Below are positions 5,851 to 50,067 of a stretch of 64,000 bases of DNA, piece by piece. The DNA is from Anderseniella sp. Alg231-50. GTDB taxonomy: Bacteria; Pseudomonadota; Alphaproteobacteria; Rhizobiales; Aestuariivirgaceae. The notes under the pieces were generated by a model. That model was not told the DNA's origin and did no database searches. It saw nothing but the letters and a program-made list of their open reading frames with translations. Position numbers and translations under genes: made by a program. Location: contig NZ_LT703003.1 in NCBI RefSeq assembly GCF_900149695.1, positions 1,302,001-1,366,000 on the forward strand. Direction: 5' to 3'. The stretch's first letter is position 1. Each line of letters starts with the position of its first letter.

Positions 5851-6167
5851 GGTGTTCACTTGTCGCAATCGTCTGGGTGAAATGGCTCACCAACCTGAAG
5901 TCAAGGCGAGCCGTGATTACCGCAATGCGCACCCAGGTTCCAAGCGCCGCGATATGCTGCAAATAGCGCCGATCACAGGGAATGTACAGGGTCCAGTTAT
6001 CGCCAGTCAGGTGTTGTACTACCGCCTACCCTCATCAAGGGCGTTTTTGAAGCGTAAGGATGCCGACGACGTTGTTCTGTACATTCGCTCGAAAATCGAT
6101 TGTGCTTCGCGTCCGGACAAGACGGTCGGGAGCCAGGTGCTGCTGAGTATGGCGGAGAAAGAAGCTT
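5851..6167. other. Intergenic stretch, possible 97-residue reading frame
   Basis: This stretch separates the helicase and methyltransferase starts and should hold both promoters. A plus-strand frame from the ATG at 5882 to the TGA at 6173-6175 could encode 97 residues and would overlap the methyltransferase start. It has no recognisable domain and no clear ribosome binding site, so I do not call it a gene. A purine-rich GGAGAAAG at about 6151-6158 is a plausible ribosome binding site for the methyltransferase. Confidence 0.3.
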
Positions 6168-7016
6168 ATGAATGATGATGTGTCACGGTCGTCTGAATAT
6201 ATTCATGGCAGTTCGCCGGAGGAACAACACCGGTTGTCCCTGCTTAATGGTATTTTGAATGAGTCGTGCCTGAGAGAGCTCAATCTCCAGCCGGGAGAGA
6301 AAGTCCTGGATCTTGGCAGTGGCCTTGGTCAGTTTACCCGTCTGATTGCACGGACAGTGGGCAGCGAGGGGCATGTAGTCGGAATTGAGCGGGATCGCCA
6401 TCAAATAATGCAAGCGAAAAGCCTCGCGGACAGTTCGGGGGAAACGGAGCTTGCGGAGTTTCGCAAAGGCGATGCGCTGGAGCTCCCGTTGAGTGGGTCG
6501 GAACTGGGAACGTTCGACGTTGCTCATGCCCGCTTTCTTCTGGAGCATATTCCCCGCCCGGCACTGGTCATTGAACAGATGGTTCGTTCGGTTCGCCCTG
6601 GCGGAAGAATTTTTGTCTCTGATGATGATCATGACAACTTTCGTCCGTGGCCCGAACCTCGCGGTTTCCACGCCCTTTGGCAGGCGTACGTACGTTCGTA
6701 TGAGAGGCTTGGCAATGACCCGTATGTCGGTCGTCGCCTCGTCTCGTTGCTTCGAGATGCCGGGCTAACCTCCATTCGCAACACTTGCGTGTTTTTTGGG
6801 GGCTGCGCAGGAAATGAAAGGTTTCAGGCTGTCGCTGACAATCTGATTGGTGCCCTTGAGGGAGCCAAAGACGCAATGCTGTCTGAAGCATTCCTGGATG
6901 AGGAGTCTTTCGACACTGGCATGGACGGGCTTCAGCACTGGAAAGCGCATTCTTCAGCGGTCTTGTGGTACACGGTGTGTTGCGCAGAAGGGACCGTACC
7001 AAACCAAACTATCTGA
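6168..7016 (+). CDS. Class I SAM-dependent methyltransferase
   Basis: A 282-residue soluble methyltransferase. The SAM-binding motif I is clear (KVLDLGSGLGQFTRLIARTV, about residues 44-63), followed by the acidic ribose-binding residue in VVGIERD and a post-II motif DVAHARFLLEHIPRP. The overall layout resembles UbiE/COQ5-type and small-molecule methyltransferases, but nothing identifies the acceptor. The ATG at 6168 is preceded by GGAGAAAG at a slightly long spacing. The gene is flanked by genes on the opposite strand, so it is probably monocistronic. Function beyond the methyltransferase fold is unknown. Confidence 0.8.
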   Translation: MNDDVSRSSEYIHGSSPEEQHRLSLLNGILNESCLRELNLQPGEKVLDLGSGLGQFTRLIARTVGSEGHVVGIERDRHQIMQAKSLADSSGETELAEFRKGDALELPLSGSELGTFDVAHARFLLEHIPRPALVIEQMVRSVRPGGRIFVSDDDHDNFRPWPEPRGFHALWQAYVRSYERLGNDPYVGRRLVSLLRDAGLTSIRNTCVFFGGCAGNERFQAVADNLIGALEGAKDAMLSEAFLDEESFDTGMDGLQHWKAHSSAVLWYTVCCAEGTVPNQTI

Positions 7017-7079
7017 CTTTGTCTGGCGTCAGCGCCAATGGGGACACAGTTTGCCGTGTCGGTTTATGGATACACGCGT

Positions 7080-31042: not shown

Positions 31043-31295
31043 CAGCTTACCAAACGCCTACGCAACCAAAATCACGGCGGTTGTGGGTACGCCGTCGCGT
31101 GTTTCAAACCGCATTTCCACTGCCTTGCGTTCGGCTGCCGACAGTCGCCAGTACAACACATCGCGCTCATTGCCGGGTTCACCGGCAAGGCAGAACTGTG
31201 TGGTGAGTGTACGCGTGCCGGTAATCACCTTGACGTGGATGTGGGGAGCGCGGCCGGGATAGGGCACCGTGCGGATGGCGCGGAACCGGTAGTGG
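31043..31295. repeat. Direct repeat, copy 1 (dioxygenase 3' end)
   Basis: This segment aligns without net gaps to 32004-32256, a constant offset of 961 bp. The match begins at CAGCTTACC, just past the dioxygenase stop, and runs to about CGGAACCGG. It is a duplicated 3' part of the dioxygenase gene that has since diverged. Confidence 0.9.
31058..31295 (-). pseudogene. Truncated intradiol dioxygenase copy
   Basis: The frame encodes about 75-80 residues matching the C-terminal third of the intact dioxygenase at 32019-32636: compare VPYPGRAPHIHVKVITGTRT here with VPYPGRTPHIHVKVITGQRT there. The C-terminal two iron-binding histidines (HIH) survive, but everything upstream, including other ligand tyrosines, is missing. 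Upstream of about 31295 the frame continues to 31363 with unrelated residues. No ribosome binding site or start of the right kind is seen. Best read as a partial duplication, now a relic. Confidence 0.8.
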
Positions 31296-31505
31296 CACCG
31301 GATGCCGGCTTCGGCGCTCCGGCTCCTTGCGATTGCTTCACCCGTGCTCCGGGACCAGTTCACCAGCGGCTGGAACTGGCACTTATTATGAACACTGCAT
31401 TCATTTCGAGTTCAGACTCACATCGCTACCTTCCCCTTAAATCAATGAGGCATCCCGGCAGATAAGCAAACAAGAATACGGATGCCCGAATGTGAGGATA
31501 AAACA

Positions 31506-32003: not shown

Positions 32004-32256
32004 CAGCTTACCAGACGCCTAAACTATCAAATTCACTTTGGTTGTGGGCGCGCCGTCGCGTGTTTCAAACCGCATTTCCACCGCCTGACGCTCGGTTGTC
32101 GACAGTCGCCGGTACAGAACATCGTTCTCATTGCCGGGTTCACCGGCAAGGTAGAGCTGCGTGGTCAGGGTACGCTGACCGGTAATCACCTTGACGTGGA
32201 TGTGTGGCGTGCGGCCCGGATAGGGTACCGGCCGGATGGTGCGGAACCGGTATTGG
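32004..32256. repeat. Direct repeat, copy 2 (in the intact dioxygenase gene)
   Basis: Partner of 31043-31295. It spans the stop region and the C-terminal third of the intact dioxygenase gene. Confidence 0.9.
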
Positions 32257-32636
32257 CCGTCCTTGCCGGTGACGTGATGGCCGAACCCCTGAAATGCGCT
32301 GTCGCGCGGTGTGTCGCGATCATCGCCGGTGTGCAGGTACCGGCCATTGGCGTCGCACTGCCAGATTTCCACCCGTGCGCCTGATACCGGATTTCCATCT
32401 CCATCCGTCACTTGTCCGGTCAGGTAGATGATCTCGCCGCCGGCCTCGCGCACCTGGCCTTCTGTGCGCACAAGATCGTTGTCGGCATCATCGAACCGCA
32501 TGTCAGGTTCCGGATAATAAGGGCCTTCCGTTGCGCCCGGTGTGGCGACCAGGGCCTGGGCCGCCTGCGGCATCACAGCCGCTGCAACGCCTGCCGTTGA
32601 CGTTTTCAGAAATGTCCTGCGTGTGCCTTTGCCCAT
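32019..32636 (-). CDS. Intradiol ring-cleavage dioxygenase with Tat signal
   Basis: A 205-residue non-heme Fe(III) dioxygenase related to protocatechuate 3,4-dioxygenase and catechol dioxygenases. The N-terminus has a twin-arginine signal (TRRTFLKTSTAGVAAAVMPQ), so it is probably exported. Core motifs: GATEGPYYPEP, GNPVSGARVEIWQCDANGRY, YLHTGD, and VPYPGRTPHIHVKV with the C-terminal Tyr and His-x-His ligands. Exported intradiol dioxygenases of this size occur in many soil and marine bacteria, with poorly known substrates. No ring-catabolism gene adjoins it; a truncated duplicate lies 0.96 kb downstream. Confidence 0.87.
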   Translation of the reverse strand: MGKGTRRTFLKTSTAGVAAAVMPQAAQALVATPGATEGPYYPEPDMRFDDADNDLVRTEGQVREAGGEIIYLTGQVTDGDGNPVSGARVEIWQCDANGRYLHTGDDRDTPRDSAFQGFGHHVTGKDGQYRFRTIRPVPYPGRTPHIHVKVITGQRTLTTQLYLAGEPGNENDVLYRRLSTTERQAVEMRFETRDGAPTTKVNLIV

Positions 32637-35928: not shown

Positions 35929-36798
35929 ATGGCAACCGGCGCAAAATCGGCAGTGAACACTGAGCCTGTTGAGACAGGCGCGCCTGACGGCCCGGACACG
36001 GTGCCGCCGGAGAAAATGCCTCGCACCATCCAGTCGGTTGAACGCGCACTGGACATTCTGGAAATCCTGGCGGATGCCGATGGCGAACTGGCGCTCAACG
36101 AGCTTGCCGCCGGCGCGCAGCTGAATTCGTCGACCTGCCATCATCTCCTGGCCACCCTGGTAAAGCGCGGCTATGCCGGCCAGACCTCGCGCACCCGCAG
36201 CTATTTTCTCGGCCCCCGCATCACCGACCTGTCGGACAGCCGGCTGAAACAGTTCAACCTGTCCGAAATCGCCATGCCGGAACTCAGGCGCCTGAACGAC
36301 ACGACGCTGGAAAGCGTGCACCTGGCGGTTCTGCAAGGCACATCACTGGTGACCTTTGCCAAACTCGATTCCAAGCTGCCGATCCGGGTTGGATCGGATG
36401 ACGGCATGAAGGCTGATGCGGCGCACGCCACGGCGACCGGCAAGGCCATCCTCGCCTGGCTGCCGGAGCCTGAAATTGCCCGGGTGATTGCGCAGGGCGG
36501 GCTGAAACGGTTTACCGACAAGACAATTTTGACGATCTCGGAGCTGATGGAAGATCTGCGGCTGGTGCGCCGCAACGGCTATTCACTCGACAATGAGGAG
36601 TTCCAGGCCGGCGTCGTGTGTGTCGGTGCCGCCATTCGTGATCACGCCGGTGCGGTGATCGGCTCGGTCAGCGGGTCCATGCCGCGCATGCGGGCTGACG
36701 GCGATCACATGGTCAAGGTCAAACACGCCGTGCAGGACTGCGCGGCGCGAATCTCATCGCGGTTCGGCAACCCGGAACCGGAGCCAACCCACACCTGA
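35929..36798 (+). CDS. IclR family transcriptional regulator
   Basis: A 289-residue regulator. After a 30-residue N-terminal tail, the winged helix-turn-helix is typical (QSVERALDILEILADADGEL, LNSSTCHHLLATLVKRGYAG). The C-terminal effector-binding domain shows GMKADAAHATATGKAILAWL, YSLDNEEFQAGVVCVGAAIR and AVIGSVSGSMPRMRADG. IclR proteins usually control adjacent catabolic operons, sensing the substrate or an intermediate. It is read in the same direction as the 13-kb catabolic cluster that follows, and only 55 bp separate it from the alcohol dehydrogenase. The palindrome upstream may be its own operator. Confidence 0.93.
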   Translation: MATGAKSAVNTEPVETGAPDGPDTVPPEKMPRTIQSVERALDILEILADADGELALNELAAGAQLNSSTCHHLLATLVKRGYAGQTSRTRSYFLGPRITDLSDSRLKQFNLSEIAMPELRRLNDTTLESVHLAVLQGTSLVTFAKLDSKLPIRVGSDDGMKADAAHATATGKAILAWLPEPEIARVIAQGGLKRFTDKTILTISELMEDLRLVRRNGYSLDNEEFQAGVVCVGAAIRDHAGAVIGSVSGSMPRMRADGDHMVKVKHAVQDCAARISSRFGNPEPEPTHT

Positions 36799-36853
36799 AA
36801 ACAGCAAGCGCAACAAAATGCGCTGGAAAAAACACGAACGAGGAGACGTAAAA

Positions 36854-38017
36854 ATGGCAATGCCGATTGATGTAAAGACCAGCACCGACTATCCGATCCC
36901 GGAAACCATGAAAGCCTGGGTGTTGGGCAATCCCGGCGACATCTCCTTGCAGGACAAACCGGTTCCGGCCCCTGCCAGGGCGGAAGTGCTGGTGCGCATC
37001 GACGCGGTGGCCATTTGCGCAACCGACCTTGAGATCATCCATCACGGCCCGCCGGCGCAGATCAACGGCCAACTGCCGTTCAACCAGAATTTCACGCCTG
37101 GCCATGAATATATGGGAACCGTGGTCGCGCTCGGCCCCGGCGTTGACGAGTATGCAATCGGTGAACGGGTTACCGTGGAAATTCATGCAGGTTGTGGCCA
37201 GTGCAAGCGCTGCCGCGAAGGCATGTACACCTCGTGCCACAATTACGGGAAAAACTATGGTGACGTGAACAAGGGCCACCGGGCCAACGGTTTCACCACC
37301 GATGGCGGTTTCTGCGAATACCAGGTCAACAACATCAACACGCTGGTGCACGTCGACGACAACATGTCGGACGAAGAGGCAACCCTCGTCGTGACCGCCG
37401 GCACAGCCATGTACGGGCTCACCGAACTGGGCGGGCTTGTCGCCGGTGAAAGCGTGGTCGTGACCGGACCCGGTCCGATCGGCCTGATGGGCGTGGCTGT
37501 GGCAAAGGCCATGGGCGCTCAACCGGTGATCCTGACCGGTACGCGCGACAACCGGCTTGAAATCGGCAAGCAGCTTGGTGCCGACCACGTCATCAATGTG
37601 CGCAAGGAAGACCCGGTCGAGGCGGTGCACAAGATCATGGGCGGCAAGGGCGTCGACTATGTGGTCGAGTGTTCGGCGGCGCCCAACGGCATCAACGAGG
37701 CGGCACAGATGGTCAATCGCGGTGGCCGTATCTGCCTGGCAGCGTTCCCGCATGAATCGCCTGCAGTGGATGTAGCCCACCTGGTGCGTAACAACATCTA
37801 TATCTTCTCCATCCGTGGCGAGGGCAAAAGCGCCACCCACCGGGCCGAAGCCTATATGCGGCAGAAACGCTTCGACGCGACGCTGATCCACACCCACACG
37901 TTCGACATGGGCGATTTGCCTGAAGCGCTGCGTTACGCCAAGGACCGGGTGGAAGATGCCATCAAGGTGGTGGTGAAGAACGATCATGCGCAAAGCCAGC
38001 GCGCAGCGGCGGAGTAG
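36854..38017 (+). CDS. Zinc-dependent alcohol/polyol dehydrogenase (MDR family)
   Basis: A 387-residue medium-chain dehydrogenase. Catalytic zinc ligands are Cys in AICATDLEIIHH and HE in TPGHEYMGTVVALGPGVDEY; the structural zinc has four Cys in AGCGQCKRCREGMYTSC. The NAD-binding loop is VVTGPGPIGLMGVAVAKAMG. It resembles sorbitol/threonine dehydrogenases, so the substrate is probably a secondary alcohol of a polyol. The ATG at 36854 follows GAGGAGACG. First enzyme of the cluster. Confidence 0.92.
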   Translation: MAMPIDVKTSTDYPIPETMKAWVLGNPGDISLQDKPVPAPARAEVLVRIDAVAICATDLEIIHHGPPAQINGQLPFNQNFTPGHEYMGTVVALGPGVDEYAIGERVTVEIHAGCGQCKRCREGMYTSCHNYGKNYGDVNKGHRANGFTTDGGFCEYQVNNINTLVHVDDNMSDEEATLVVTAGTAMYGLTELGGLVAGESVVVTGPGPIGLMGVAVAKAMGAQPVILTGTRDNRLEIGKQLGADHVINVRKEDPVEAVHKIMGGKGVDYVVECSAAPNGINEAAQMVNRGGRICLAAFPHESPAVDVAHLVRNNIYIFSIRGEGKSATHRAEAYMRQKRFDATLIHTHTFDMGDLPEALRYAKDRVEDAIKVVVKNDHAQSQRAAAE

Positions 38018-38051: not shown

Positions 38052-38969
38052 ATGCTGACATGTGACCAGTACCATATGCCGACCAGCCTGGCCGACGCAC
38101 TTGCCATGTGGCAGGACGCTGCAGACGGCACAAGGCTTGTAGCCGGCGCCACCGACATTCTGCCGTGGGCGCGGGAAGGCCGCGCCGGGGATGTTCACCT
38201 GCCGGCCATGATAGACCTCTCCCGCGTGCCTGAACTGGATGGTTATACGGTCAAAGACGGCCGCATCCGACTGGGCGCCAACGTCGTCTACCAGCAGTTC
38301 CTGAGCGATGAAAAGCTGCGTAAATTGCTGCCGTGCATGCCCTATTGCGCGGTGTGGTTTGCCGACGACCAGATTCGCGAACAGGCGACCCTGGCCGGCA
38401 ATATCGTCAATGCCTCACCGGCGGCAGACGGTACCCCGCCGATCCTGGCGCTGAACGGCGAGATTGAAATTGCCCGTCTTGACGACGGCGATGTCGCCAG
38501 TCGCAGTGTTGCCATCGGTGATTTCATCAAGGGGCCAGGTGCGACCGACCTCAAGCCGGGGGAAATTGTCACTGCCGTTACCTGTGACACGCTGGAAGGC
38601 TATGGCGGATCGTTCCAGAAGGTCGGCCAGCGTCGCTCGCTGGTGATCTCCTCGGTGTGTGCGGTTGCCTGTATCAAGCTGGACGAAGCGACCGGAACCG
38701 TTGCCGATATCCGCCTGGCGCTCGGCGGCATCAGCCCGGTGCCGCTACGCCTGAGCAGTGTTGAACAAGCGCTCACAGGCAAGCGGCTGACACGCGAGAT
38801 GATTGTCGAAGCAAGCCGGTCACCTGCAGACCTGGTGGCCTCGCGCACCCGCCGCGAATACCGGCGTGTTGTGGTTCGAGGGTTTGTAGAGGCTGCCATC
38901 GAGGATGCGCTGGCTGACTGCGGAGCAGCCCTGCCAAATGCCGAAACCAGGGAGACAGCAAATGTCTGA
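38052..38969 (+). CDS. Molybdenum hydroxylase FAD subunit
   Basis: A 305-residue FAD-binding subunit of the xanthine dehydrogenase/CO dehydrogenase family (PF00941 plus CO_deh_flav_C). The FAD contacts are AGATDILPWAREGRAGDVHL and QIREQATLAGNIVNASPAAD followed by GTPPILALN. It passes electrons from the [2Fe-2S] centres to NAD+ or another acceptor. The ATG at 38052 follows GGAGACG; an upstream in-frame ATG at 37986 overlaps the dehydrogenase gene and is rejected. Its stop overlaps the start of the next gene by 8 bp. Confidence 0.9.
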   Translation: MLTCDQYHMPTSLADALAMWQDAADGTRLVAGATDILPWAREGRAGDVHLPAMIDLSRVPELDGYTVKDGRIRLGANVVYQQFLSDEKLRKLLPCMPYCAVWFADDQIREQATLAGNIVNASPAADGTPPILALNGEIEIARLDDGDVASRSVAIGDFIKGPGATDLKPGEIVTAVTCDTLEGYGGSFQKVGQRRSLVISSVCAVACIKLDEATGTVADIRLALGGISPVPLRLSSVEQALTGKRLTREMIVEASRSPADLVASRTRREYRRVVVRGFVEAAIEDALADCGAALPNAETRETANV

Positions 38970-40860
38970 ACAAACCCAAACCGACCTGCAACTGGAATTC
39001 AGGATCAACGGGCGCAACATGAAGCGGCGGGCAAAGCCGCACCAGCGCCTGCTGGACTTCATCCGTGACGACCTTGCCCTGACCGGTGCCAAGGAAGGCT
39101 GCGGCGCCGGTGAATGCGGCACCTGCTCGGTGTTCGTCGACGGCAAGCTGGTCAAGTCCTGCCTGATGCCGGTGGCCAAGATCAACGAGGCGACAATTGA
39201 GACGATCGAAGGCCTCACCGGATGGGGTGGAGACCTGACGCCGGTGCAGAAGGCGTTTCACAAGACCGGCGCCAGCCAGTGCGGTTACTGCATTCCCGGC
39301 ATGGTGATGGCGGCAACCTCGGCCCTGCGCGAAAACCCGAAAGCCGACATCGAGGAAATCAAGGAACGCCTAGGCGGCAATATCTGCCGCTGCACCGGCT
39401 ACACCAAGATTTTCGAAGCTGTCGAAATGGCCCGTGACGTGCTGTCGGGCGAGAGCAACCCAACCGTTTTGGAAGCCGACGGTGCGGGTAAATCCTATAT
39501 CGGCAACAATGTCCGCCGCCTGGATGCGCCGAGCAAGGTTGCCGGCCGGTTGCGTTATGCGGGCGACATGGTGATGCCGGGCATGCTGCACATGCAGGTG
39601 CTCAGAAGTCCGCATGCCCATGCGCTGATAAAGTCCATCGACACAAGCGAGGCCGAAAGCCTGCCCGGCGTGGCCTGTGTCGTTACCGCTGACGACGTGC
39701 CCGGAGAAGACGGCTTCGGCGTGTTTGTGCACGACCAGCCGATCATGGCGCGTGGCCGGGTGCGGTATGTAGGTGAAGCCATTGCCGCCGTTGCTGCCGA
39801 TGACGTGCTGACGGCGGCGCGTGCGGTATCCCTTATCAAGGTCGAGTATGAACCGGTTGCAGCGGTGTTTGACGCGGAAGAGGCCATGCAGAACGGGGCG
39901 CCGGTGGTGCATGAGTATGCGCCGGACAATGTCGTAAAGCACATTCCCATTCGCAAGGGTGATCTTGAACAGGGTTTCGCGGACGCCGACCTGGTGGTCG
40001 AGCAGAGTTATGACACCCAGGCGGTTGAACACGCTTACCTGGAGCCGGAAGCGGGTATCGCCTATGTCGATCATGACGACGTGGTCACGGTCGTGTCGCC
40101 GAGCCAGAACATCACCCATCACCGGCACATGCTGGCCAAGATCATCGACAGGCCGATCAACAAGGTCCGGTTCATCATGAGCCCCGTCGGCGGCGGTTTC
40201 GGCGGCAAGGAAGACATGATCTACCAGGGCATGCTGGCGCTGGCGGCGATGAAGACGGGCGCACCTGTGCGGCTGGTTTACACGCGGGAAGAATCCATCA
40301 TTTCAACCGCCAAACGCCACCCGGCACGCATCACCTACAAGATGGGGTTGAAGCAGGATGGCCGCATAACCGCCGTGTCCTTCAGGATGGTCTGCGACGG
40401 CGGCGCCTACGGGCTTTCGACCGAAGGCGTCATGCGCAAGGCCGCCATCCTGTCGTGCGGACCGTACAATGTGCCCAATGTCCAGATCGACGTGTACGGC
40501 ATCTACACCAACAACACGCCGTCAGGCGCCTTCCGTACATTCGGCGCGATGCAGTCGCAGTTTGCCACGGAGTCCCACATGGATATCTGCGCGGAAAAGC
40601 TCGGCCTGGACCCGTTCGAAATCCGGCGCATCAACATGATGCATGACGGCGCGGTCACCCATACGCAGCAGAAACTGGGATCCGTTTCGATGGGCCGCGT
40701 GCTTGACGAGGCTGAAAAGGCGAGCCGCTGGGACGCGGGGCCGGCCGGGATGCGCGGCCAGGAGCGCACTGATCTTGGCGGTGATGATACACGTCCACCC
40801 TGCACACTGGGGGCACGGTTCCGCAAAGCGGGTGATGATGATCGCCAGGAGGTGGCATGA
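38962..40860 (+). CDS. [2Fe-2S] subunit fused to N-terminal half of Mo-binding subunit
   Basis: A 632-residue protein with two parts. Residues 1-160 are the ferredoxin-like subunit: CGAGECGTCSVFVDGKLVKS and CGYCIPGM with GNICRCTGYTKI provide the eight cysteines. From about 175 follow the molybdenum hydroxylase a/b hammerhead domain (VAGRLRYAGDMVMPGMLHMQ) and the first molybdopterin domain, with GGGFGGKEDMIYQ and SGAFRTFGAMQSQFATE. The order resembles E. coli XdhD, but this protein stops after the first Mo domain. The last about 40 residues are low-homology and run to a TGA overlapped by the next ATG (ATGATG). CO dehydrogenase is excluded by the absence of its AYxCSFR motif. Confidence 0.88.
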   Translation: MSEQTQTDLQLEFRINGRNMKRRAKPHQRLLDFIRDDLALTGAKEGCGAGECGTCSVFVDGKLVKSCLMPVAKINEATIETIEGLTGWGGDLTPVQKAFHKTGASQCGYCIPGMVMAATSALRENPKADIEEIKERLGGNICRCTGYTKIFEAVEMARDVLSGESNPTVLEADGAGKSYIGNNVRRLDAPSKVAGRLRYAGDMVMPGMLHMQVLRSPHAHALIKSIDTSEAESLPGVACVVTADDVPGEDGFGVFVHDQPIMARGRVRYVGEAIAAVAADDVLTAARAVSLIKVEYEPVAAVFDAEEAMQNGAPVVHEYAPDNVVKHIPIRKGDLEQGFADADLVVEQSYDTQAVEHAYLEPEAGIAYVDHDDVVTVVSPSQNITHHRHMLAKIIDRPINKVRFIMSPVGGGFGGKEDMIYQGMLALAAMKTGAPVRLVYTREESIISTAKRHPARITYKMGLKQDGRITAVSFRMVCDGGAYGLSTEGVMRKAAILSCGPYNVPNVQIDVYGIYTNNTPSGAFRTFGAMQSQFATESHMDICAEKLGLDPFEIRRINMMHDGAVTHTQQKLGSVSMGRVLDEAEKASRWDAGPAGMRGQERTDLGGDDTRPPCTLGARFRKAGDDDRQEVA

Positions 40861-41873
40861 TGGAACGTAAAATGCGCGGCCGCGGCATGGCGGCAAGCTG
40901 GTATGGCATAGCACGCACAGCGACCATCGACCGGGCCGGGGCCTGGGCAGAGCTTGATGACGGCGGCACGGCAAAGATCGTCACCGGCGTTACTGAAATC
41001 GGTGAAGGCATCCTGACCCTGCTGGCCCAGGTGGCGGCAGAGGAAATGGGCATCAAGCCGGAAGATATTACCATCGGCGACAATGACACGGCGCGCTCGC
41101 CGGAGGCAGCCCATGCCGGCGCCACCCGGCAAACCTACATGATCGGCAACTCGGTTGCACTGGCATGCCGTGATGCGCGCGCCAAGCTGGACAAGGAACT
41201 GGCCGATCACTGGGACGTGGAGGCCGACAGTATTGAAGCGTTTGACGGTGAAATCTGGTCAAAAGACTCGAACCTGAAAATGTCCATGGAAGAAGCAGTG
41301 GACATCTGCAAGAAGCGCGGCGTCGTGCCGGTGGGATCGGGATCGTTCACCGCCCATGGCACCGGGCTTGATCCGGTCGATGGCTCCGGCAGCCCGTGGC
41401 AGGCCTATGTGTTCGGCACCCAGGTGGCGGAGGTTGAAGTTGATACGGTAACCGGTGAAGTGCAGGTGCTGGGCATCTGGGCCTCGCATGACGTGGGCAG
41501 GGCTATCAATCCGCGCGGCGTGGAAGGCCAGATCGAAGGTGGTGTCGTGCAGGGGCTCGGGCAGGCCCTGATGGAAGATTACCAGCTCGAGGACGGACAT
41601 ACCAAGACGCACGGGTTTGCAAAGTACATCCTGCCGACCGCGCTGGATATTCCCGAAATCAATACGGTTATCGTGGAAGACCCCGATCCGAAGAGTCCGC
41701 TGGGCGCGAAGGGCATCGGAGAACCGGCACTGGTGCCGACCGCACCGGCCATCATGAACGCAATCCATGACGCTGTCGGCGTGCGCATTACGTCACTGCC
41801 GGCAACGCCTGAAAAAGTGCTGGCGGCGCTGGAAGCCAAAGCGGCTTCCGGTCAACTGGAAGCTGCTGAATGA
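40857..41873 (+). CDS. C-terminal half of molybdenum hydroxylase Mo subunit
   Basis: A 338-residue protein matching the second molybdopterin-binding domain. It begins MMERKMRGRGMAASWYGIAR, the usual start of this domain in full-length subunits. TEIGEGILTLLAQVAAEEMG and DNDTARSPEAAHAGATRQTY bind the cofactor. KGIGEPALVPTAPAIMNAIH near residue 286 carries the catalytic Glu. Together with the previous protein (632 + 338) it makes one XdhD-sized polypeptide. The four-base ATGA overlap would couple translation. Either the subunit works as two chains or the gene has split. Confidence 0.87.
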   Translation: MMERKMRGRGMAASWYGIARTATIDRAGAWAELDDGGTAKIVTGVTEIGEGILTLLAQVAAEEMGIKPEDITIGDNDTARSPEAAHAGATRQTYMIGNSVALACRDARAKLDKELADHWDVEADSIEAFDGEIWSKDSNLKMSMEEAVDICKKRGVVPVGSGSFTAHGTGLDPVDGSGSPWQAYVFGTQVAEVEVDTVTGEVQVLGIWASHDVGRAINPRGVEGQIEGGVVQGLGQALMEDYQLEDGHTKTHGFAKYILPTALDIPEINTVIVEDPDPKSPLGAKGIGEPALVPTAPAIMNAIHDAVGVRITSLPATPEKVLAALEAKAASGQLEAAE

Positions 41874-41952: not shown

Positions 41953-42924
41953 ATGAGAAACATGAACCTGAAATCGTTGTTGCTGGGGGCAACTGCATCT
42001 GTCTTTCTGCTGGCCGGACTGAATGTCCAGGCGCGTGCGGAATTCCCTGAAAAACCGGTTGAGATGACCGTGTTGTTCGGTGGCACGGCACAGACCATCG
42101 GCCAGTTGCTGGCGGACCTGATGTCGAAAAACCTGGCCAACCCCGTGGTTGCAGTCAGCCGCACTGGCGGCGGCGGCGCGGTCGGGTACTCGCATGTCCA
42201 GTCGACAGATGCCGACGGCTACAACATGGTGTGGAACTCCAATTCGGTGAGCACGTCGCATTATCGCGGCAACATGAAATTCAACTATGAAGCGTTCACC
42301 CCCATCGCCCGGGTGAGCGTCGAAACACCGGCGCTGGCGGTCAGCGCCGATTCCGGCTGGAAATCGCTTAAAGAGATGGCCGATGCCGTCAAGGCCGGCG
42401 ACAGCAAGCTGAAAGTGGGCATTTCCGGTAACGGCTCGTTCACCCACCTGACGTCTGCAGCCCTGTTCGACAAGATGGGCATTGCCGACAAGGTGGTCTA
42501 CGTGCCGTACGGCAAGGGCAAGGCGCCGGTTGAACTGCTTGCCAAGCGTGTCGATGCCGCCGTGCAGTGGCCGGGGCAGTTCATCCCGCACCAGCAGGCC
42601 GGCAAGCTGTCGATCCTGTGCGTGACCGGCAAGGACCGCATTCCACAGCTCAAGGACACACCGTCATGTGCCGAGGCCGGTGCGACGGACCTGAACATCA
42701 CCATGTGGCGCGGTCTGGCGGCACCTGCGGGTACACCTGCCGATGTGGTTGCCAAGCTGCAGGATGCAGCCAAGGCAGCGATTGCATCGGACGAGTTCCA
42801 GTCAGCCGCCGACAAGATCGGCTTTGAGGCGTCGTTCCTGCCGGCAGACGAGTTCGGTTCGCTTATCGCCTCGGATGATGCCGCGATCAGTGACCTGATG
42901 GGCAAGCTGGGCCTGAAGAAATAG
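41953..42924 (+). CDS. TTT transporter solute-binding protein (Bug/TctC)
   Basis: A 323-residue periplasmic binding protein of the Bug family. A signal peptide (SLLLGATASVFLLAGLNVQA) is followed by the mature fold: FPEKPVEMTVLFGGTAQTIG, VAVSRTGGGGAVGYSHVQST, and the C-terminal AAPAGTPADVVAKLQDAAKA. Bug proteins bind carboxylates, aromatic acids and related small molecules; no ligand can be named here. GGGAGGAAACC before ATG 41953 is a strong ribosome binding site. First of the three transporter genes tctCBA. Confidence 0.94.
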   Translation: MRNMNLKSLLLGATASVFLLAGLNVQARAEFPEKPVEMTVLFGGTAQTIGQLLADLMSKNLANPVVAVSRTGGGGAVGYSHVQSTDADGYNMVWNSNSVSTSHYRGNMKFNYEAFTPIARVSVETPALAVSADSGWKSLKEMADAVKAGDSKLKVGISGNGSFTHLTSAALFDKMGIADKVVYVPYGKGKAPVELLAKRVDAAVQWPGQFIPHQQAGKLSILCVTGKDRIPQLKDTPSCAEAGATDLNITMWRGLAAPAGTPADVVAKLQDAAKAAIASDEFQSAADKIGFEASFLPADEFGSLIASDDAAISDLMGKLGLKK

Positions 42925-42934
42925 GCCGCCCGGC

Positions 42935-43432
42935 ATGGTCTCGCGTCGCTCCGATATCATACTGAGTACCATACTGCTTGTGGTATCGGCACTTTGGTGC
43001 TGGGGAGTGGTCACCACCATTCCCGGTGCCGAAGACGGCTCGCGCCTTGGCGCCAGGGGGTTTCCCCTGGGCCTTGGCCTGCTGCTGGGCGGATTGAGCC
43101 TGGTCATTCTGCTGCAAAGCCTGCGGCCCGTATCTGCAGAGACCGCCGGCGATGAAGCCGAGCCGTCGGACATCAGCAGTGGTGTTGAAGTCTGGGCAAT
43201 CACCGCCACGGTCGGGCTTCTGGTCGGATACGCGGTGCTGCTTGAATACACCGGCTTCATGATTGCAACCGCGCTGGTCGTGGCAGCGGCTGTCGGGCCG
43301 GTACTGGGCATCTGGCGGCCGAGGCTGATCGCAGGCATGTCGGTCGGTCTGTCACTGGGCATCTATCTGGTTTTCGGCAAGCTGCTCGGTGTCTACCTGC
43401 CGTACGGCAAACTTATCAACCTGGCATTCTAG
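42935..43432 (+). CDS. TTT transporter small membrane subunit (TctB)
   Basis: A 165-residue membrane protein with four hydrophobic helices (for example IILSTILLVVSALWCWGVVT, LGLLLGGLSLVILLQ and TGFMIATALVVAAAVGPVLG). It is the poorly conserved small subunit of the tripartite tricarboxylate transporter, identified by size, topology and position between the Bug and TctA genes. Confidence 0.9.
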   Translation: MVSRRSDIILSTILLVVSALWCWGVVTTIPGAEDGSRLGARGFPLGLGLLLGGLSLVILLQSLRPVSAETAGDEAEPSDISSGVEVWAITATVGLLVGYAVLLEYTGFMIATALVVAAAVGPVLGIWRPRLIAGMSVGLSLGIYLVFGKLLGVYLPYGKLINLAF

Positions 43433-43441
43433 GAGCGCGGC

Positions 43442-44974
43442 ATGGATGCATTCGCCAGCGCCCTGGGGGCCGTTTCAGACCCGTTCACGCTGCTTGCCAT
43501 CGTGGCCGGCGCGATCATCGGTATCGTGTTCGGCTCCGTGCCGGGGCTGACTTATTCCATGGCACTGGCACTGGTGCTGCCGATCACCTTCAAGTTTGAC
43601 ACCAGCGCCGCCGTCGGCATGTTGCTGGGGACTTACATAGGCGGCATGACGGGCGGTTCTGTATCTGCGATCCTGCTTGGCATACCAGGCACGCCGTCTG
43701 CGGCTGCGACCGTGCTTGACGGCTACAAGATGACCCGCAACGGACGCGCCGGGCTGGCGCTGGGCGGTGCGGTTCTGGCCAGCGGGTTCGGTGGCATCTT
43801 CAGCCTGCTGGTGATGATCGTCTCGGTTGATCTGGTGGCCCGCCTGGCCATTCAGTTCGGGCCGGTGGAGATTTTCGCGCTGGTGCTGTTCGGCCTGTCG
43901 ACGATCTGCGGACTGGCTGGAAAATCGCTGGTGCGCGGCATGATTGCCGGTGTCATCGGTCTGCTGCTGATGACCATTGGCCTGGACGACATGGACGGTG
44001 TGGCGCGCATGACGTTCGGGTGGACACCCTTGCTGCAGGGCGTAGACCTGCTGGTGGCCATGGTCGGGCTGTTCGCCGTGCCGCAGATCATGAAGACGCT
44101 GATCGACTACAAGCTCGACCGGGCGTTCAGGCTGAACGCATCGGGTGTGCGCAGCGAACTGCCCACTTTCAAGCAGTTGCGCAATTCATTCTGGCTGATG
44201 TTGCGCTGCTCGGCACTGGGAACCGGCGTCGGCTCGATCCCCGGTACCGGCGGGCCAATCGCGGCTTTCCTGGCGTACGATCACGCAAAACGGTTTTCGA
44301 AAGAACCGCAACGGTTCGGCAAGGGCAAGCTGGACGGCGTGATGGCACCTGAATCGGCCAACAATGCCGTCACCGGCGGCGCCATGATCCCGCTTCTGTC
44401 ACTCGGCATACCGGGTGATCCTGCAACGGCCGTCATGCTTGGCGGGTTCCTGATCCACGGACTGGTGCCGGGGCCGATGCTGTTCACCCACAACAAAGCG
44501 GAAGTCTACCTGATCTACCTGGCGATACTGGTCTCGTACATCACGGTGGTGGTGTTCCAGTATTTCGGCATTCGCGGTTTCGTGAAACTGCTGAAAGTAC
44601 CGCCGCACCTGATGGCGGTGGGCATTCTCATCATGTGTGGCGTCGGGACGTTTGCCATCCGCAATTCGTTTCTCGATGTCTACATGATGGTCGGTGTGGG
44701 CCTGATCGGTTATCTGCTGATGCGGGCGCGCATTCCGGTGACGCCGATCATTCTCGGCCTGGTGCTGGGACCGACGCTGGAGCGCGAGTTCCGCACCGCA
44801 GTGATCATGTCCGAAGGCAGTTTCGGGGTATTCTTTTCATCTGCCACGGCTGTCATTTTTTACGCGTTGACCATCGCCGTCATCGGGTTCCATTTCTACG
44901 GCCAGATGCGCGACGCCAAGAAAACGCGGGATGCGGTAAACGGCAAGAAAGCACAACAACAGGGGGCAGGCTGA
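43442..44974 (+). CDS. TTT transporter large membrane subunit (TctA)
   Basis: A 510-residue membrane permease with about 12 helices. The family signature is clear: GSVPGLTYSMALALVLPITF, AILLGIPGTPSAAATVLDGY, and the repeat GSIPGTGGPIAAFLAYDHAK later. GGAMIPLLSLGIPGDPATAV is the second conserved motif. Together with TctC and TctB it would import an organic acid by secondary transport. The C-terminus is basic and charged. It ends five bases before the first candidate start of the next gene. Confidence 0.95.
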   Translation: MDAFASALGAVSDPFTLLAIVAGAIIGIVFGSVPGLTYSMALALVLPITFKFDTSAAVGMLLGTYIGGMTGGSVSAILLGIPGTPSAAATVLDGYKMTRNGRAGLALGGAVLASGFGGIFSLLVMIVSVDLVARLAIQFGPVEIFALVLFGLSTICGLAGKSLVRGMIAGVIGLLLMTIGLDDMDGVARMTFGWTPLLQGVDLLVAMVGLFAVPQIMKTLIDYKLDRAFRLNASGVRSELPTFKQLRNSFWLMLRCSALGTGVGSIPGTGGPIAAFLAYDHAKRFSKEPQRFGKGKLDGVMAPESANNAVTGGAMIPLLSLGIPGDPATAVMLGGFLIHGLVPGPMLFTHNKAEVYLIYLAILVSYITVVVFQYFGIRGFVKLLKVPPHLMAVGILIMCGVGTFAIRNSFLDVYMMVGVGLIGYLLMRARIPVTPIILGLVLGPTLEREFRTAVIMSEGSFGVFFSSATAVIFYALTIAVIGFHFYGQMRDAKKTRDAVNGKKAQQQGAG

Positions 44975-45006: not shown

Positions 45007-46878
45007 ATGGGTGATGCGGCAAGGCTGCGGGCCAAGGCGATCAGCAAGGCCGGCGGGCTCGACAAGGCCCTGGCCGATGGCGTCATCGACGACATGGTCG
45101 AGGTGTCATTGTCGGAAGGTCTCGTTCTGGGTCTGCTCAGACAGGGCGTGCGGAAATACTTCGCGATTTTCGGCCACGGCTCGACGGACCTTGGCGAGGT
45201 GTTGCGCATTTATGATGAAGAAGGCGTCACCCGGACCGTCAATTGCCGCAATGAGGTGGAGATGGCCCATGCCGCCACTGCACTTTCCTGGCAGTACGGT
45301 GAAACCTGCGCCGTCGTCACCTCAATCGGCCCCGGCGCCCTGCAGGCCATGGCCGGCTCACTGGCGGCAGCGTCCAATGGTGTCGGCGTCTACCACATCT
45401 ATGGTGACGAGACGACGCAGGGCGAAGGCTACAACATGCAGCAGATACCCAAGGAGCAGCAGGGCCTGTTCGGTCAGATCGGTGCACTGATGGGGCAATC
45501 CTACGTGCTGCATACGCCCGGTGCGCTGCGTGACTGCATGCGGCGCGGCACGGCGTGCGTGCATCATCCTTACAAGGCCGGGCCGTATTACGTGTTGCTG
45601 CCGCTGAACACCCAGCCGCAACTGACCCAGGTGAACCTGGCGACCTTGCCCGGTGCGCTCACTGTTCCGGCCACGGCACCTGCCGACGATATCGCTTATG
45701 CCGATGCGCTTGACAGGCTTGCCGCCTCGAAACGCCCGGTGATCAAGGCAGGCGGCGGCACGCGCGGGCATGACGACGTGGTGCGGCAGCTGGCCGAACG
45801 CATCGGGGCGGTGGTGGTGCAGTCGCCCGGATCAACCGGCGTACTGCCCGATGCGCACCCGCAGAACATGCATGTGGGTGGTTCCAAGGGATCGATTTCC
45901 GGCAACTATGCCATGGACAATGCCGACCTGCTGATTGCCATGGGCACGCGCGCGGTGTGCCAGGCAGACTGCTCCGGTGTCGGCTATCCGAATGCCCAGG
46001 CGGTGATCAATATCAACGGCGACCTGTCCGACCTGATGCACTATGCCAACACGGTTGGCCTGCCGGGCGATATTTCCGCAGTGACGTCGAAATTGCTGGA
46101 ACAGATGACTGGTTCAAACTCGATCGATCCGGCCGCCAGGTCGGATTGGCTTGATGCCTGTGCGGCGCAAAAACAGGCCTGGATCAGGTTCAAGGCGGAA
46201 CGGTTTGCGGCCGAACCGATTGCAGACGAGGCTTGGGGACGGGACGTGCTGACCCAGCCGCTGGCCATCAAGATTGCGGCAGACCATGCCGCAGCGCTGG
46301 ATGCAGCGAAGTTTTTCGATGCCGGCGACGTTCAGGCCAACGGCTTCCAGGTCGTAGAAGATAACCGGACGGGAGATACCTACACCGAGACCGGCGCGTC
46401 CTATATGGGATTTTCCGTCTCGGCACTGCTGGCCTCGGGCGCGGCCGACGAGCCGCGTTACGGCGTGGCGTTCACCGGTGACGGATCGTTCATGATGAAC
46501 CCGCAAATCCTGATTGACGGTGTGGAGCATGGTGTCAAAGGCATGATCGTGCTGTTTGACAATCGCCGGATGGCTGCCATTACCGGCCTGCAGCAAGCGC
46601 AATACGGCGAGGAATTCCGGACCAACGACCAGGTGCCGGTTGACTATGTGCAGATGGCGTCATCGGTCGCCGGCGTAAAGGCGGTGTTTGCCGGATATGA
46701 CCAGGACAGCCTGCGCAGGGCACTGGACGAGGCAGGCCAGCATGACGGCCTGTCGCTGGTGCATGTGCCGGTCTATGCCGGCACAGATGCCATTGGCGGC
46801 ATGGGGGCTTACGGATCATGGAATGTGGGTAACTGGGTTGGCGATGTGCAGGCCCGTTATCTGAAACAGAAAATCTGA
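45007..46878 (+). CDS. ThDP-dependent enzyme of the IolD type
   Basis: A 623-residue ThDP enzyme of the acetolactate-synthase superfamily. The N-terminal domain has AIFGHGSTDLGEVLRIYDEE and the catalytic Glu in CRNEVEMAHAATALSWQ. The C-terminal ThDP motif runs from GDGSFMMNPQILIDGVEHGV to VLFDNRRMAAITGLQ. The pattern IFGHG...RNE...LLFDN-like is closest to IolD, which hydrolyses the ring of 3D-trihydroxycyclohexane-1,2-dione. The enzyme here may cleave a different 1,2-diketone. I start at ATG 45007 because AAAGAGG lies at ideal spacing; ATG 44980 would add nine residues. Residue-level comparison with IolD is from memory of the family. Confidence 0.82.
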   Translation: MGDAARLRAKAISKAGGLDKALADGVIDDMVEVSLSEGLVLGLLRQGVRKYFAIFGHGSTDLGEVLRIYDEEGVTRTVNCRNEVEMAHAATALSWQYGETCAVVTSIGPGALQAMAGSLAAASNGVGVYHIYGDETTQGEGYNMQQIPKEQQGLFGQIGALMGQSYVLHTPGALRDCMRRGTACVHHPYKAGPYYVLLPLNTQPQLTQVNLATLPGALTVPATAPADDIAYADALDRLAASKRPVIKAGGGTRGHDDVVRQLAERIGAVVVQSPGSTGVLPDAHPQNMHVGGSKGSISGNYAMDNADLLIAMGTRAVCQADCSGVGYPNAQAVININGDLSDLMHYANTVGLPGDISAVTSKLLEQMTGSNSIDPAARSDWLDACAAQKQAWIRFKAERFAAEPIADEAWGRDVLTQPLAIKIAADHAAALDAAKFFDAGDVQANGFQVVEDNRTGDTYTETGASYMGFSVSALLASGAADEPRYGVAFTGDGSFMMNPQILIDGVEHGVKGMIVLFDNRRMAAITGLQQAQYGEEFRTNDQVPVDYVQMASSVAGVKAVFAGYDQDSLRRALDEAGQHDGLSLVHVPVYAGTDAIGGMGAYGSWNVGNWVGDVQARYLKQKI

Positions 46879-46893
46879 CCAGGGAAAACCAAC

Positions 46894-48330
46894 GTGTATC
46901 AGGACTTTCAGCTTTATATCGACGGCGAATGGGTTTCGGCAAAAGGCGGCGCGACCAAGCAGGTATTTGACCCGGCAAACGAAGACGAGATAGGCAAGAT
47001 TTCAGATGCCGGCAGCGATGACCTGGACCGGGCGTTGTCCGCTGCGGAGGCGGGTTTTGCAGAATGGAAACAGGCCGGCACCTGGGAACGGGCCGCAAAG
47101 ATCCGCAAGGTTGCCGACCTGATCCGGGAACGGCTGAACACCATTGCCACGATCATGTCTATCGAGACCGGCAAACCGCTGGCCGAAGCCAAGGGCGAGA
47201 CCAATGGTGCGGCTGACCAGTTCGAATGGTATTCGGAAGAGACCAAGCGGATTTACGGCCAGCTGATCGGCTCGCGTACCCATGACAGCCGCCTGGCGGT
47301 GATCTACCAACCGGTCGGTGTTGTGGCTGCGTTTTCGGCCTGGAACTTCCCGGCCCTGCTGCCGGCGCGCAAGATTGCGGCAGCACTCGCCGCCGGGTGT
47401 TCGGTGATCATCAAGCCGGCCGGGGAAGCACCCGGTTCCTGCGCCCTGATCGTCCAGGCCTGTCATGATGCGGGGATTCCGAAAGGTGTGGTGAATTTCG
47501 TTACCGGCAATTCAAGCATGATCGCAAAGCATCTGATCTCATCGCCGGTGGTGCGCAAGGTTTCGGTGACCGGATCGGTGCCGGTTGGCAAGGAAATCCT
47601 GCACCTGGCGGCGGATGGCGTCAAAAAGGTATCCATGGAACTGGGCGGGCACGGCCCGGTCATCGTGTTCGAAGATGCCGACGCTGAAAAAGCTGCGGAA
47701 GTATGCGCCGGCACCAAGTTCAGGAATTGCGGCCAGGTGTGCATTTCACCGACGCGGTTTTACGTCCATGAAGCCAGATATGATGCCTTTGCCGCCAAGT
47801 TTGCCCAGGTCGCCAGATCCATCAAGGTGGGACGCGGCATGGACGAAGGGACGCAGATGGGCCCGATGGCCAATTCACGCGGGCTGGAGACCATCAAGAC
47901 GATGGTTGCCGATGCCGTCGACAAGGGCGCGGAAATCCTGGCCGGGGGCCAGCAGCCGAAGGATTTCAATCGCGGCTTCTACTATGAGCCCACAGTGCTG
48001 GGCCGGGTGCCGGACGATGCCATGGTGATGACTGAAGAGCCGTTCGGGCCGGTTGCGCCGCTGACGACATTCACCGAGTACGATGATGTCATGACCCGGG
48101 CCAACTCATTGCCGTTTGGTCTGGCCGGATACCTGTTCACCCACGATCTGGGCACGGCGACCCGCGCGTCGGAAGACATGGAGGTTGGCATGGTCGGCGT
48201 CAATGAAATGCTGCTGGCAACCGCAGAAGCACCATTTGGCGGTATCAAGGAAAGCGGCATGGGGCGCGAAGGCGGATCGCTTGGCATTCATGACTATCTT
48301 GAGCCAAAGTATGTCAAGATGAAGCTTTAA
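46894..48330 (+). CDS. NAD(P)+-dependent aldehyde dehydrogenase
   Basis: A 478-residue ALDH-superfamily enzyme. Signatures: AAFSAWNFPALLPARKIAAA, cofactor GSVPVGKE, catalytic Glu in MELGGHGPVIVFEDADAEKA and the nucleophilic Cys in FRNCGQVCISPTRFYV. The C-terminal MTEEPFGPVAPLTTF is usual. It resembles succinate-semialdehyde and sugar-derived aldehyde dehydrogenases. The start is GTG 46894, with AGGGAAA upstream. It follows the ThDP enzyme by 15 bp and could oxidise the aldehyde produced on ring or C-C cleavage. Confidence 0.95.
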   Translation: MYQDFQLYIDGEWVSAKGGATKQVFDPANEDEIGKISDAGSDDLDRALSAAEAGFAEWKQAGTWERAAKIRKVADLIRERLNTIATIMSIETGKPLAEAKGETNGAADQFEWYSEETKRIYGQLIGSRTHDSRLAVIYQPVGVVAAFSAWNFPALLPARKIAAALAAGCSVIIKPAGEAPGSCALIVQACHDAGIPKGVVNFVTGNSSMIAKHLISSPVVRKVSVTGSVPVGKEILHLAADGVKKVSMELGGHGPVIVFEDADAEKAAEVCAGTKFRNCGQVCISPTRFYVHEARYDAFAAKFAQVARSIKVGRGMDEGTQMGPMANSRGLETIKTMVADAVDKGAEILAGGQQPKDFNRGFYYEPTVLGRVPDDAMVMTEEPFGPVAPLTTFTEYDDVMTRANSLPFGLAGYLFTHDLGTATRASEDMEVGMVGVNEMLLATAEAPFGGIKESGMGREGGSLGIHDYLEPKYVKMKL

Positions 48331-48348: not shown

Positions 48349-50067
48349 ATGTCAGACAGCAAAGAATTCGGTCTCGCCAAGGGACTGACCAACTATGGTG
48401 ATCGTGATTTTTCGATCTACCTGCGCCGGTCTTTCGCCAGCTCGATGGGGTATTCGCGCGACATGCTGTCGAAGAAGATCGTCGGCATCGCCTACACACC
48501 GTCCGGCTACAACAACTGCCACCGGCATTTTCCGGAAATGCTGGAGGCGGTCAAACGTGGTGTCCTGACTGCCGGTGCGTTGCCGGTGGAGTTTCCCACC
48601 ATTTCGCTCGGTGAAGTATTCCTCAACCCGACCAGCCTGAAGTTCCGCAATCTGATGTCCATGGACACAGAGGAGATGATCCGGGCGCAACCAATGGATG
48701 CGGTGGTGCTCATGGGCGGGTGCGACAAGACGGTGCCGGCACAGTTGATGGGTGCCGTGTCTGCCGACCTGCCGGCGGTGCAGATTGTTGCCGGCCCGAT
48801 GATGACGTCGCGCCACGGCGAGGAGCGCCTCGGGGCCTGTACCGACTGCCGCCGCTTCTGGGGCAAGTACCGTGCCGGCGAGATCGATACGGATGAGATC
48901 AACACGGTCGAAATGCGGCTTGCGACAACCGCCGGGACCTGCGCCGTCATGGGCACGGCGTCGACGATGGCGTGTATCGCTGAGGCGCTTGGCATGTCGT
49001 TTCCCGGAACCGCCGCCATTCCGGCAGTGCATGCCGACAGGCTGCGCGCGGCGGAGGCGACCGGTATTGCGGCAGTCAACCTGATGGCTCGGCCGGTCAG
49101 GCCTTCCGAGATCATCACCCGCGACAGCGTAGAGAACGCATTGCGGGTGTTGCTGGCGCTGGGCGGCTCGACAAATGCCATTGTCCACCTCACGGCCATT
49201 GCGGGCAGGGCGGGCATCGACATCCCGCTGACCTGGTTGAACGAGCTATCCGAGACAACACCTGTGCTGGTCAACCTGAAGCCGGTCGGATCGCACTACA
49301 TGGAGGACTTCTTTTATGCCGGTGGCCTTGGCGCGGTACTGCGTGAACTGAAACCGTTGCTGAACCTGGATTGCGCGACCGTGACCGGTGATACACTGGG
49401 AGAGAGACTTGACCAGCCTGCGGAACCTGCTGATCGCAAGGTTATCTCCAGTGCACGATCACCGCTCGAAGCCAAGGGCGGCCTGGTGGCGCTGTTCGGC
49501 TCACTGGCACCGAGGGGGGCGATTCTGAAACGGTCGGCTGCCGATAACACGCTGTTCGAGAAGGAAGGCCGCGCCGTGGTGTTCAGTTCGCTGGAAGATC
49601 TGGCCGCCCGCATCGATGATCCGGACCTGGACGTGACGGCGGATGACTTTCTGGTGCTGCAGAACGCCGGGCCGACAAGCCCGTCGGGCATGCCTGAGGC
49701 AGGCTACCTGCCGATCCCGAAGAAACTTTCCTCGCAAGGGGTCAAGGACATGGTGCGGATATCGGATGCAAGGATGTCAGGCACGGCTTTCGGTACGATT
49801 GTGTTGCATGTGACACCGGAGGCGGCACAGGCCGGGCCATTGGCGCTGGTGCAGAATGGTGACCGCATTCGCCTGTCCGTCGAAAACAAGACGATTGACC
49901 TGCTGGTGGACGAGGAGGAACTGGAACGGCGCCGGGCAAGCTATCAGTCCAGTGCGCGTGACGCAGCGACTTTGCGTGGCTACGACAAGCTCTATGCCGA
50001 GCAGGTGCTGCAGGCAGATGAAGGTTGCGATTTCGCATTCATGAAACCGGTGCAGGATGACCGATGA
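48349..50067 (+). CDS. IlvD/Edd family dehydratase
   Basis: A 572-residue iron-sulfur dehydratase of the dihydroxy-acid/6-phosphogluconate dehydratase family. Cluster and active-site motifs: MGGCDKTVPAQLMGAVSADL, CTDCRRFWGKYRAGEID, AGTCAVMGTASTMACIAEAL, and DARMSGTAFGTIVLHVTPEA near the C-terminus. The CTDC and the WGKY region resemble sugar-acid (pentonate/hexonate) dehydratases more than IlvD of leucine synthesis, consistent with its catabolic neighbours. It would remove water from a 2,3-dihydroxy acid to give a 2-keto-3-deoxy acid. Its 3' end overlaps the MFS gene by 11 bp. Confidence 0.93.
   Translation: MSDSKEFGLAKGLTNYGDRDFSIYLRRSFASSMGYSRDMLSKKIVGIAYTPSGYNNCHRHFPEMLEAVKRGVLTAGALPVEFPTISLGEVFLNPTSLKFRNLMSMDTEEMIRAQPMDAVVLMGGCDKTVPAQLMGAVSADLPAVQIVAGPMMTSRHGEERLGACTDCRRFWGKYRAGEIDTDEINTVEMRLATTAGTCAVMGTASTMACIAEALGMSFPGTAAIPAVHADRLRAAEATGIAAVNLMARPVRPSEIITRDSVENALRVLLALGGSTNAIVHLTAIAGRAGIDIPLTWLNELSETTPVLVNLKPVGSHYMEDFFYAGGLGAVLRELKPLLNLDCATVTGDTLGERLDQPAEPADRKVISSARSPLEAKGGLVALFGSLAPRGAILKRSAADNTLFEKEGRAVVFSSLEDLAARIDDPDLDVTADDFLVLQNAGPTSPSGMPEAGYLPIPKKLSSQGVKDMVRISDARMSGTAFGTIVLHVTPEAAQAGPLALVQNGDRIRLSVENKTIDLLVDEEELERRRASYQSSARDAATLRGYDKLYAEQVLQADEGCDFAFMKPVQDDR

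Follow-up and report, generated by a model that had tools for sequence, protein, structure and literature searches.

A very probably functional molybdenum hydroxylase with a two-chain molybdenum subunit and a fused [2Fe-2S] domain in Anderseniella sp. Alg231-50

The DNA analysed here is a 64,000-nucleotide stretch of the Anderseniella sp. Alg231-50 genome (contig NZ_LT703003.1, positions 1,302,001 to 1,366,000), referred to below as the window. It contains a pair of overlapping genes which very probably encode a genuine, functional two-chain molybdenum (Mo) hydroxylase of the xanthine dehydrogenase family. In most bacteria the Mo part of these enzymes is usually one chain, while here it is made as two chains from overlapping genes. 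The first open reading frame (ORF1, 38962..40860; all features are on the + strand unless stated otherwise) encodes a chain of 632 aa, named L, with the [2Fe-2S] domains and the first Mo-binding half. The second (ORF2, 40857..41873) encodes a chain of 338 aa, named M, with the second Mo-binding half. These coordinates and lengths, the domain content and the ATGA overlap between the genes had been given in an original prediction made from the sequence alone, and were borne out by the ORF listing and by Pfam.

The Pfam matches were all highly significant. The two [2Fe-2S] domains of L (38962..39426, residues 1-155) consist of Fer2 at residues 14-62 and Fer2_2 at residues 81-155. They are followed by the Ald_Xan_dh_C hammerhead domain (39544..39855, residues 195-298) and by MoCoBD_1 (39907..40638, residues 316-559), while MoCoBD_2 occupies residues 5-266 of M. 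The full domain set of the xanthine dehydrogenase/oxidase (molybdenum hydroxylase) family is thus found across L and M. The family's cofactor loops, GGGFGGK and AFRxFG, are both present in MoCoBD_1 of L (as GGGFGGKED, residues 410-418, and AFRTFG), and the Glu of the GxGEPAL motif is found in M, where GIGEPAL covers residues 286-292. The two longer motifs lie in the chains to which the original prediction had assigned them.

The residues expected at the active site are conserved. The cysteines of the iron-sulphur (FeS) clusters are invariant in 54 relatives. At the Mo/substrate site of L, Glu417 is kept in 53 of the 54 aligned rows, and Lys493, Arg525 and Phe527 in every one. In M, Tyr16 and the catalytic Glu289, which lies in GIGEPAL, are kept in each of the 23 rows extending over these positions. 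By alignment, Tyr16 corresponds to Tyr13 of NdhM, a subunit of nicotinate dehydrogenase (NDH), which was modelled as binding the ring nitrogen of nicotinate (PMC5746545). Purine xanthine dehydrogenase (XDH) proper was considered as an identity and rejected. It needs the equivalents of bovine XDH Glu802 and Arg880, whose roles are taken in part from PMC5746545; the Glu is kept, but the Arg880 position is a Lys in 54 of 54 rows.

The AlphaFold model of L superimposes well on chain A of the NDH structure (3hrd_A, TM-score TMt 0.89). L and M would fold as separate units and then meet at the domain interface that normally surrounds the Mo cofactor, in the manner of NdhL and NdhM. L would contribute both [2Fe-2S] clusters, the first Mo half and a flexible linker, and M the second half with the catalytic Glu. 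A flavin adenine dinucleotide (FAD) subunit encoded just upstream would complete an L-M-FAD unit in which electrons pass from Mo through the two [2Fe-2S] clusters to FAD.

The split was found again in relatives. A total of 80 loci were fetched from species genomes, isolates included, with probes taken from the M chain of the window, its N-terminus among them. The same break is present at 74 of these loci, so that the search for homologues with the same split, which the original prediction had proposed, succeeded, and close relatives share the break instead of having an unbroken gene. Isolates with the split include HIMB114 (SAR11), Rhodovulum, Aurantimonas, Nioella and Xanthobacter. On the finished plasmid pS26_248 of Phaeobacter piscinae S26 (locus L105), L and M are annotated as two coding sequences within the same operon. 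In 71 of the split loci L is not truncated by a contig end, and in every one of them it carries the fused FeS domains. Two more carriers came from 385 genomes of the class that were drawn independently, and their M frames are short in both cases (350 and 362 aa). One-chain domains were found at only six of the 80 loci, namely four from Firmicutes (L088-L091) and two from metagenome-assembled genomes (MAGs; L018 and L050). Dozens of related bacteria from the sea and from soil thus share the split, which marks it as a genuine and durable arrangement rather than an error of sequencing. Together with the Pfam domains, the shared break confirms the predicted fusion of FeS to the first Mo half and a Mo subunit truly made of two chains.

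At the junction, a ribosome-binding site, AGGAGGT (40847..40853), lies within the codons of the last L residues and matches the Shine-Dalgarno (SD) sequence over 7-8 nt; in the window and its near relatives the last L codons therefore double as the ribosome site of M. It is followed by the ATGA stop/start overlap (40857..40860), M starting at ATG 40857 or ATG 40860. Upstream of its start the ORF2 frame is interrupted by numerous stops and the third frame is likewise closed, which leaves the ORF1 frame as the sole open one, with no other frame continuing the domain. A small base correction joining the two frames, which the original prediction had named as the outcome that would speak against a split, is thus not available. 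In the 74 split loci, a 4-base overlap was observed 23 times, a 1-base overlap 31 times, a gap of 1-10 bases 19 times and a 209-base gap once; L and M overlap or nearly abut in 73 of 74. M would be translated from the overlapping ATGA start by means of the ribosome site that lies in the last part of the L gene, with coupled and roughly equal synthesis of the two chains as the likely outcome.

The last 40 residues of L (residues 593-632, 40738..40857) form a conserved C-terminal linker or tail, as seen in the alignment of split and one-chain relatives. Its consensus, including W590, reads WE.GAP..RG..R.DL....R..CTLGARF...EVA, and the EVA ending is found in many split relatives. The segment is also present in the one-chain proteins of L018 and L050, and its first half in the one-chain Firmicutes proteins, where the chain continues into MoCoBD_2. 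When the tail was compared with three near relatives, the values for synonymous change (pS) were 0.58, 0.33 and 0.58, and those for nonsynonymous change (pN) 0.022, 0.034 and 0.079. The tail is thus under constraint at the protein level, as judged from these sequence comparisons, and evolves as protein in the frame that contains the stop. Since it aligns across split and one-chain relatives with pN far below pS, it is the family's own long inter-domain linker. The original prediction was wrong in seeing no family resemblance in these residues. The alignment to relatives that it had suggested located the segment in all split and one-chain relatives, but not at comparable length in the XdhD-like paralogue of the same genome (L002), whose linker is much shorter. 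The tail is predicted to be disordered, and AlphaFold gave it no confident structure either in the split L or in a one-chain relative; in the models, the break falls in a low-confidence linker between compact domains. Split and one-chain relatives are both available for a direct test of the role of this linker.

A tree was built from both Mo halves by a quick method, and contains long branches. In this tree the split proteins, together with L018 and L050, form a proteobacterial group beside the one-chain Firmicutes, with NDH and other paralogues outside. L018 nests among split relatives, and its one-chain state may reflect re-fusion. When all split rows were forced into one clade, the approximately unbiased (AU) test did not reject the constraint (p 0.33). 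When L050 was placed outside the split group, the tree scored slightly better than the free one. According to these results a single break, possibly with re-fusion in L018, is compatible with the data. The split is most simply explained by a single origin in the proteobacterial branch, where the long linker of an ancestral one-chain FeS-Mo protein, resembling those of the Firmicutes, would have been broken; this direction is inferred, not proven.

Two-chain Mo subunits are uncommon, as originally predicted. MoCoBD_2 gave 130 matches in 58 alphaproteobacterial genomes and, apart from frames at contig ends and one frameshift-like case, only two of them were short frames. Both belong to the present genome: one is the window pair and the other is a second split Mo subunit (L094) on another contig (G000 contig C4, about 260.2-263.0 kb, - strand; L 5272-7041, M 4247-5269). 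Around this second pair, FeS and FAD subunits are encoded by genes of their own, and SRPBCC (CoxG-like) and MoxR/VWA (CoxD/E-like) genes are also present; the L chain of L094 is extended at the C-terminus by a Pro/Ala-rich segment. Short M frames were likewise observed for the relatives of L094 in four further alphaproteobacterial genomes. The frameshift-like case (L095; G007 contig 432, 1-1268) is a CoxL-like gene which ends in WEYD* and restarts in the middle of a domain, probably owing to a frameshift in a fragmented MAG.

The pair belongs to a conserved operon. Upstream of L are genes for an IclR-family regulator (35929..36798, 289 aa; present in 58 of 62 long loci), a zinc-dependent dehydrogenase similar to Tdh/IolM (36818..38017, 399 aa) and the FAD subunit (38052..38969, 305 aa; Pfam FAD_binding_5 and CO_deh_flav_C), the last of which shares 8 bases with the start of L. 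Downstream of M are genes for a carboxylate transporter, consisting of a TctC-like solute-binding protein (41953..42924; RefSeq name of the Phaeobacter orthologue), a TctB-like small membrane protein (42935..43432) and a TctA-like permease (43442..44974). These are followed by an IolD/acetolactate-synthase-like thiamine pyrophosphate (TPP) enzyme (45007..46878, start approximate), a succinate-semialdehyde-dehydrogenase-like aldehyde dehydrogenase (ALDH; 46894..48330) and an IlvD/Edd-family dehydratase near L-arabinonate-dehydratase-type enzymes (48349..50067). The TctB-like, TctA-like, ALDH and dehydratase assignments likewise draw in part on the Phaeobacter orthologues. The zinc dehydrogenase, FAD subunit, L, M and IolD-like TPP enzyme co-occur in all 62 long loci. 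The transporter varies, being TctCBA in the window and a Na_sulph_symp/CitMHS-type carrier in Firmicutes.

The Mo enzyme and the zinc dehydrogenase would oxidise an imported organic anion and the TPP enzyme would cleave it, giving an aldehyde and a hydroxy acid that would enter central metabolism. This route is suggested by established knowledge of these enzyme families. Tentatively, and with somewhat less than an even chance, the Mo hydroxylase could be the signature enzyme of an undescribed organic-anion catabolic pathway in marine and soil Alphaproteobacteria (SAR11 included), with a one-chain form in gut Firmicutes; the constant core of the pathway would then comprise this hydroxylase, the zinc dehydrogenase and the IolD-like TPP enzyme. 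Literature searches on the operon's combination of enzymes and transporter, on homarine and on trihydroxycyclohexane found no description of the operon. Variously, the Firmicutes clusters also carry a split transketolase, a LacAB/RpiB isomerase, a short-chain dehydrogenase/reductase and an ALDH, which hint at a sugar-acid-like substrate. In Phaeobacter piscinae S26 the entire operon is plasmid-borne and adjoins a transhydrogenase subunit gene. Elsewhere in the window, a short ORF (31058-31363, - strand) is highly similar to the C-terminal half of the adjacent intradiol-dioxygenase-like gene (32019-32636, - strand) and is probably a truncated duplicate.

Could the two genes be one ordinary one-chain gene broken by a sequencing or assembly frameshift? 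The one-chain layout does exist, in Firmicutes and in the two MAGs, and such frameshifts do occur in MAGs, as in the CoxL-like gene described above. That break is of another kind, lying inside a domain with a mid-domain restart. For the window pair, the closed frames, the 74 independent loci and the finished plasmid that share the break, the conserved ribosome site and overlap, and the protein-like evolution of the tail make an artefact extremely improbable, although such gene pairs could be misread as frameshifted genes. Decay of a broken gene, leaving one or both halves non-functional, has nothing in its favour beyond the break itself, and its probability is just as minute: cofactor and catalytic residues are kept in both halves, pN is far below pS in the body of L (MoL), and the surrounding operon is intact. 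It is very improbable that programmed frameshifting or readthrough at the overlap still yields a single chain. A frame change at ATGA is compatible with the sequence, but the frame relation varies among relatives, as the short gaps in 19 loci and the 209-base gap indicate, a strong separate ribosome site precedes M, and no slippery sequence was seen on inspection of the junction in the window. Several points weigh against a conserved two-chain enzyme with the role proposed. Because the probes came from the window's own M chain, close and split relatives are favoured in the sample. SD matches of at least 6 bases were found at 23 of 74 M starts against 95 of 3261 in-frame ATG/GTG codons within L genes, a comparison in which the best of several candidate starts per locus was used and the M-start figure is somewhat inflated. 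The proteobacterial loci L018 and L050 are one-chain, so the split is not absolute, and the AU tests do not separate one split plus re-fusion from other histories. The most likely role, that of a catabolic hydroxylase acting on an imported organic anion at an early pathway step, is suggested by family and operon context and has about an even chance of being correct.

The two-chain enzyme could also be a nicotinate dehydrogenase of the Eubacterium barkeri type, which is very unlikely. That enzyme (NdhF/S/L/M, 3HRD) is the closest precedent, being likewise split at the MoCoBD_1/MoCoBD_2 border. NdhL and NdhM are the best split PDB matches of L and M (M residues 5-328 aligned to NdhM 2-328, E 3e-76), and Tyr13 of NdhM is conserved. 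However, the sequence similarity is only moderate, and NDH has a separate FeS subunit (NdhS), the FeS domains of the window family being part of L. NdhL ends about 14 residues beyond the aligned domain, whereas L has about 40 more and NDH lacks the conserved linker tail. NDH also differs in having a Leu at the Glu417 position and a Mo-Se centre, and in the quick, long-branched tree it is on a different branch, outside the clade of Firmicutes and proteobacteria. To our knowledge, an IolD-like TPP enzyme, an IlvD dehydratase and a zinc dehydrogenase are not neighbours of the known nicotinate route, which also counts against this identity. The window enzyme thus resembles NDH in that its Mo site lies where two chains meet, yet it is no member of the NDH type. 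On the tree the NDH split looks independent of that in the window, its deep placement being unsure.

Other known systems share parts of this architecture. In the Desulfovibrio aldehyde oxidoreductase MOP (1SIJ, 1DGJ) the FeS domains are likewise fused ahead of the Mo domains with no FAD between, and MOP is the best fold match of the one-chain L050 protein (TM 0.83/0.88) and of L. It differs in being a single chain of 907 aa, and is not known to include a separate FAD subunit. The XdhD or selenium-dependent xanthine dehydrogenase type (TIGR03311) is the best NCBIfam match for L and has the same domain order, in agreement with the original view that L and M sum to the XdhD layout, but it is one chain; the paralogue L002 has this one-chain FeS-Mo layout. 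Membership of TIGR03311 was rejected, the two chains scoring 515 and 136 bits against a curated cut-off of 830. For selenium-dependent hydroxylase markers, the genome gave no YqeB match and SelD only below cut-off. The alpha subunit of 4-hydroxybenzoyl-CoA reductase (1RM6) has homologous Mo domains which match both halves strongly, but its Mo subunit is one chain and its FeS subunit is separate. The window pair and its relatives are thus a further widespread, heritable case of a Mo-hydroxylase active site formed from two chains. The split itself is known from NDH; what is new here is its combination with a fused FeS domain.

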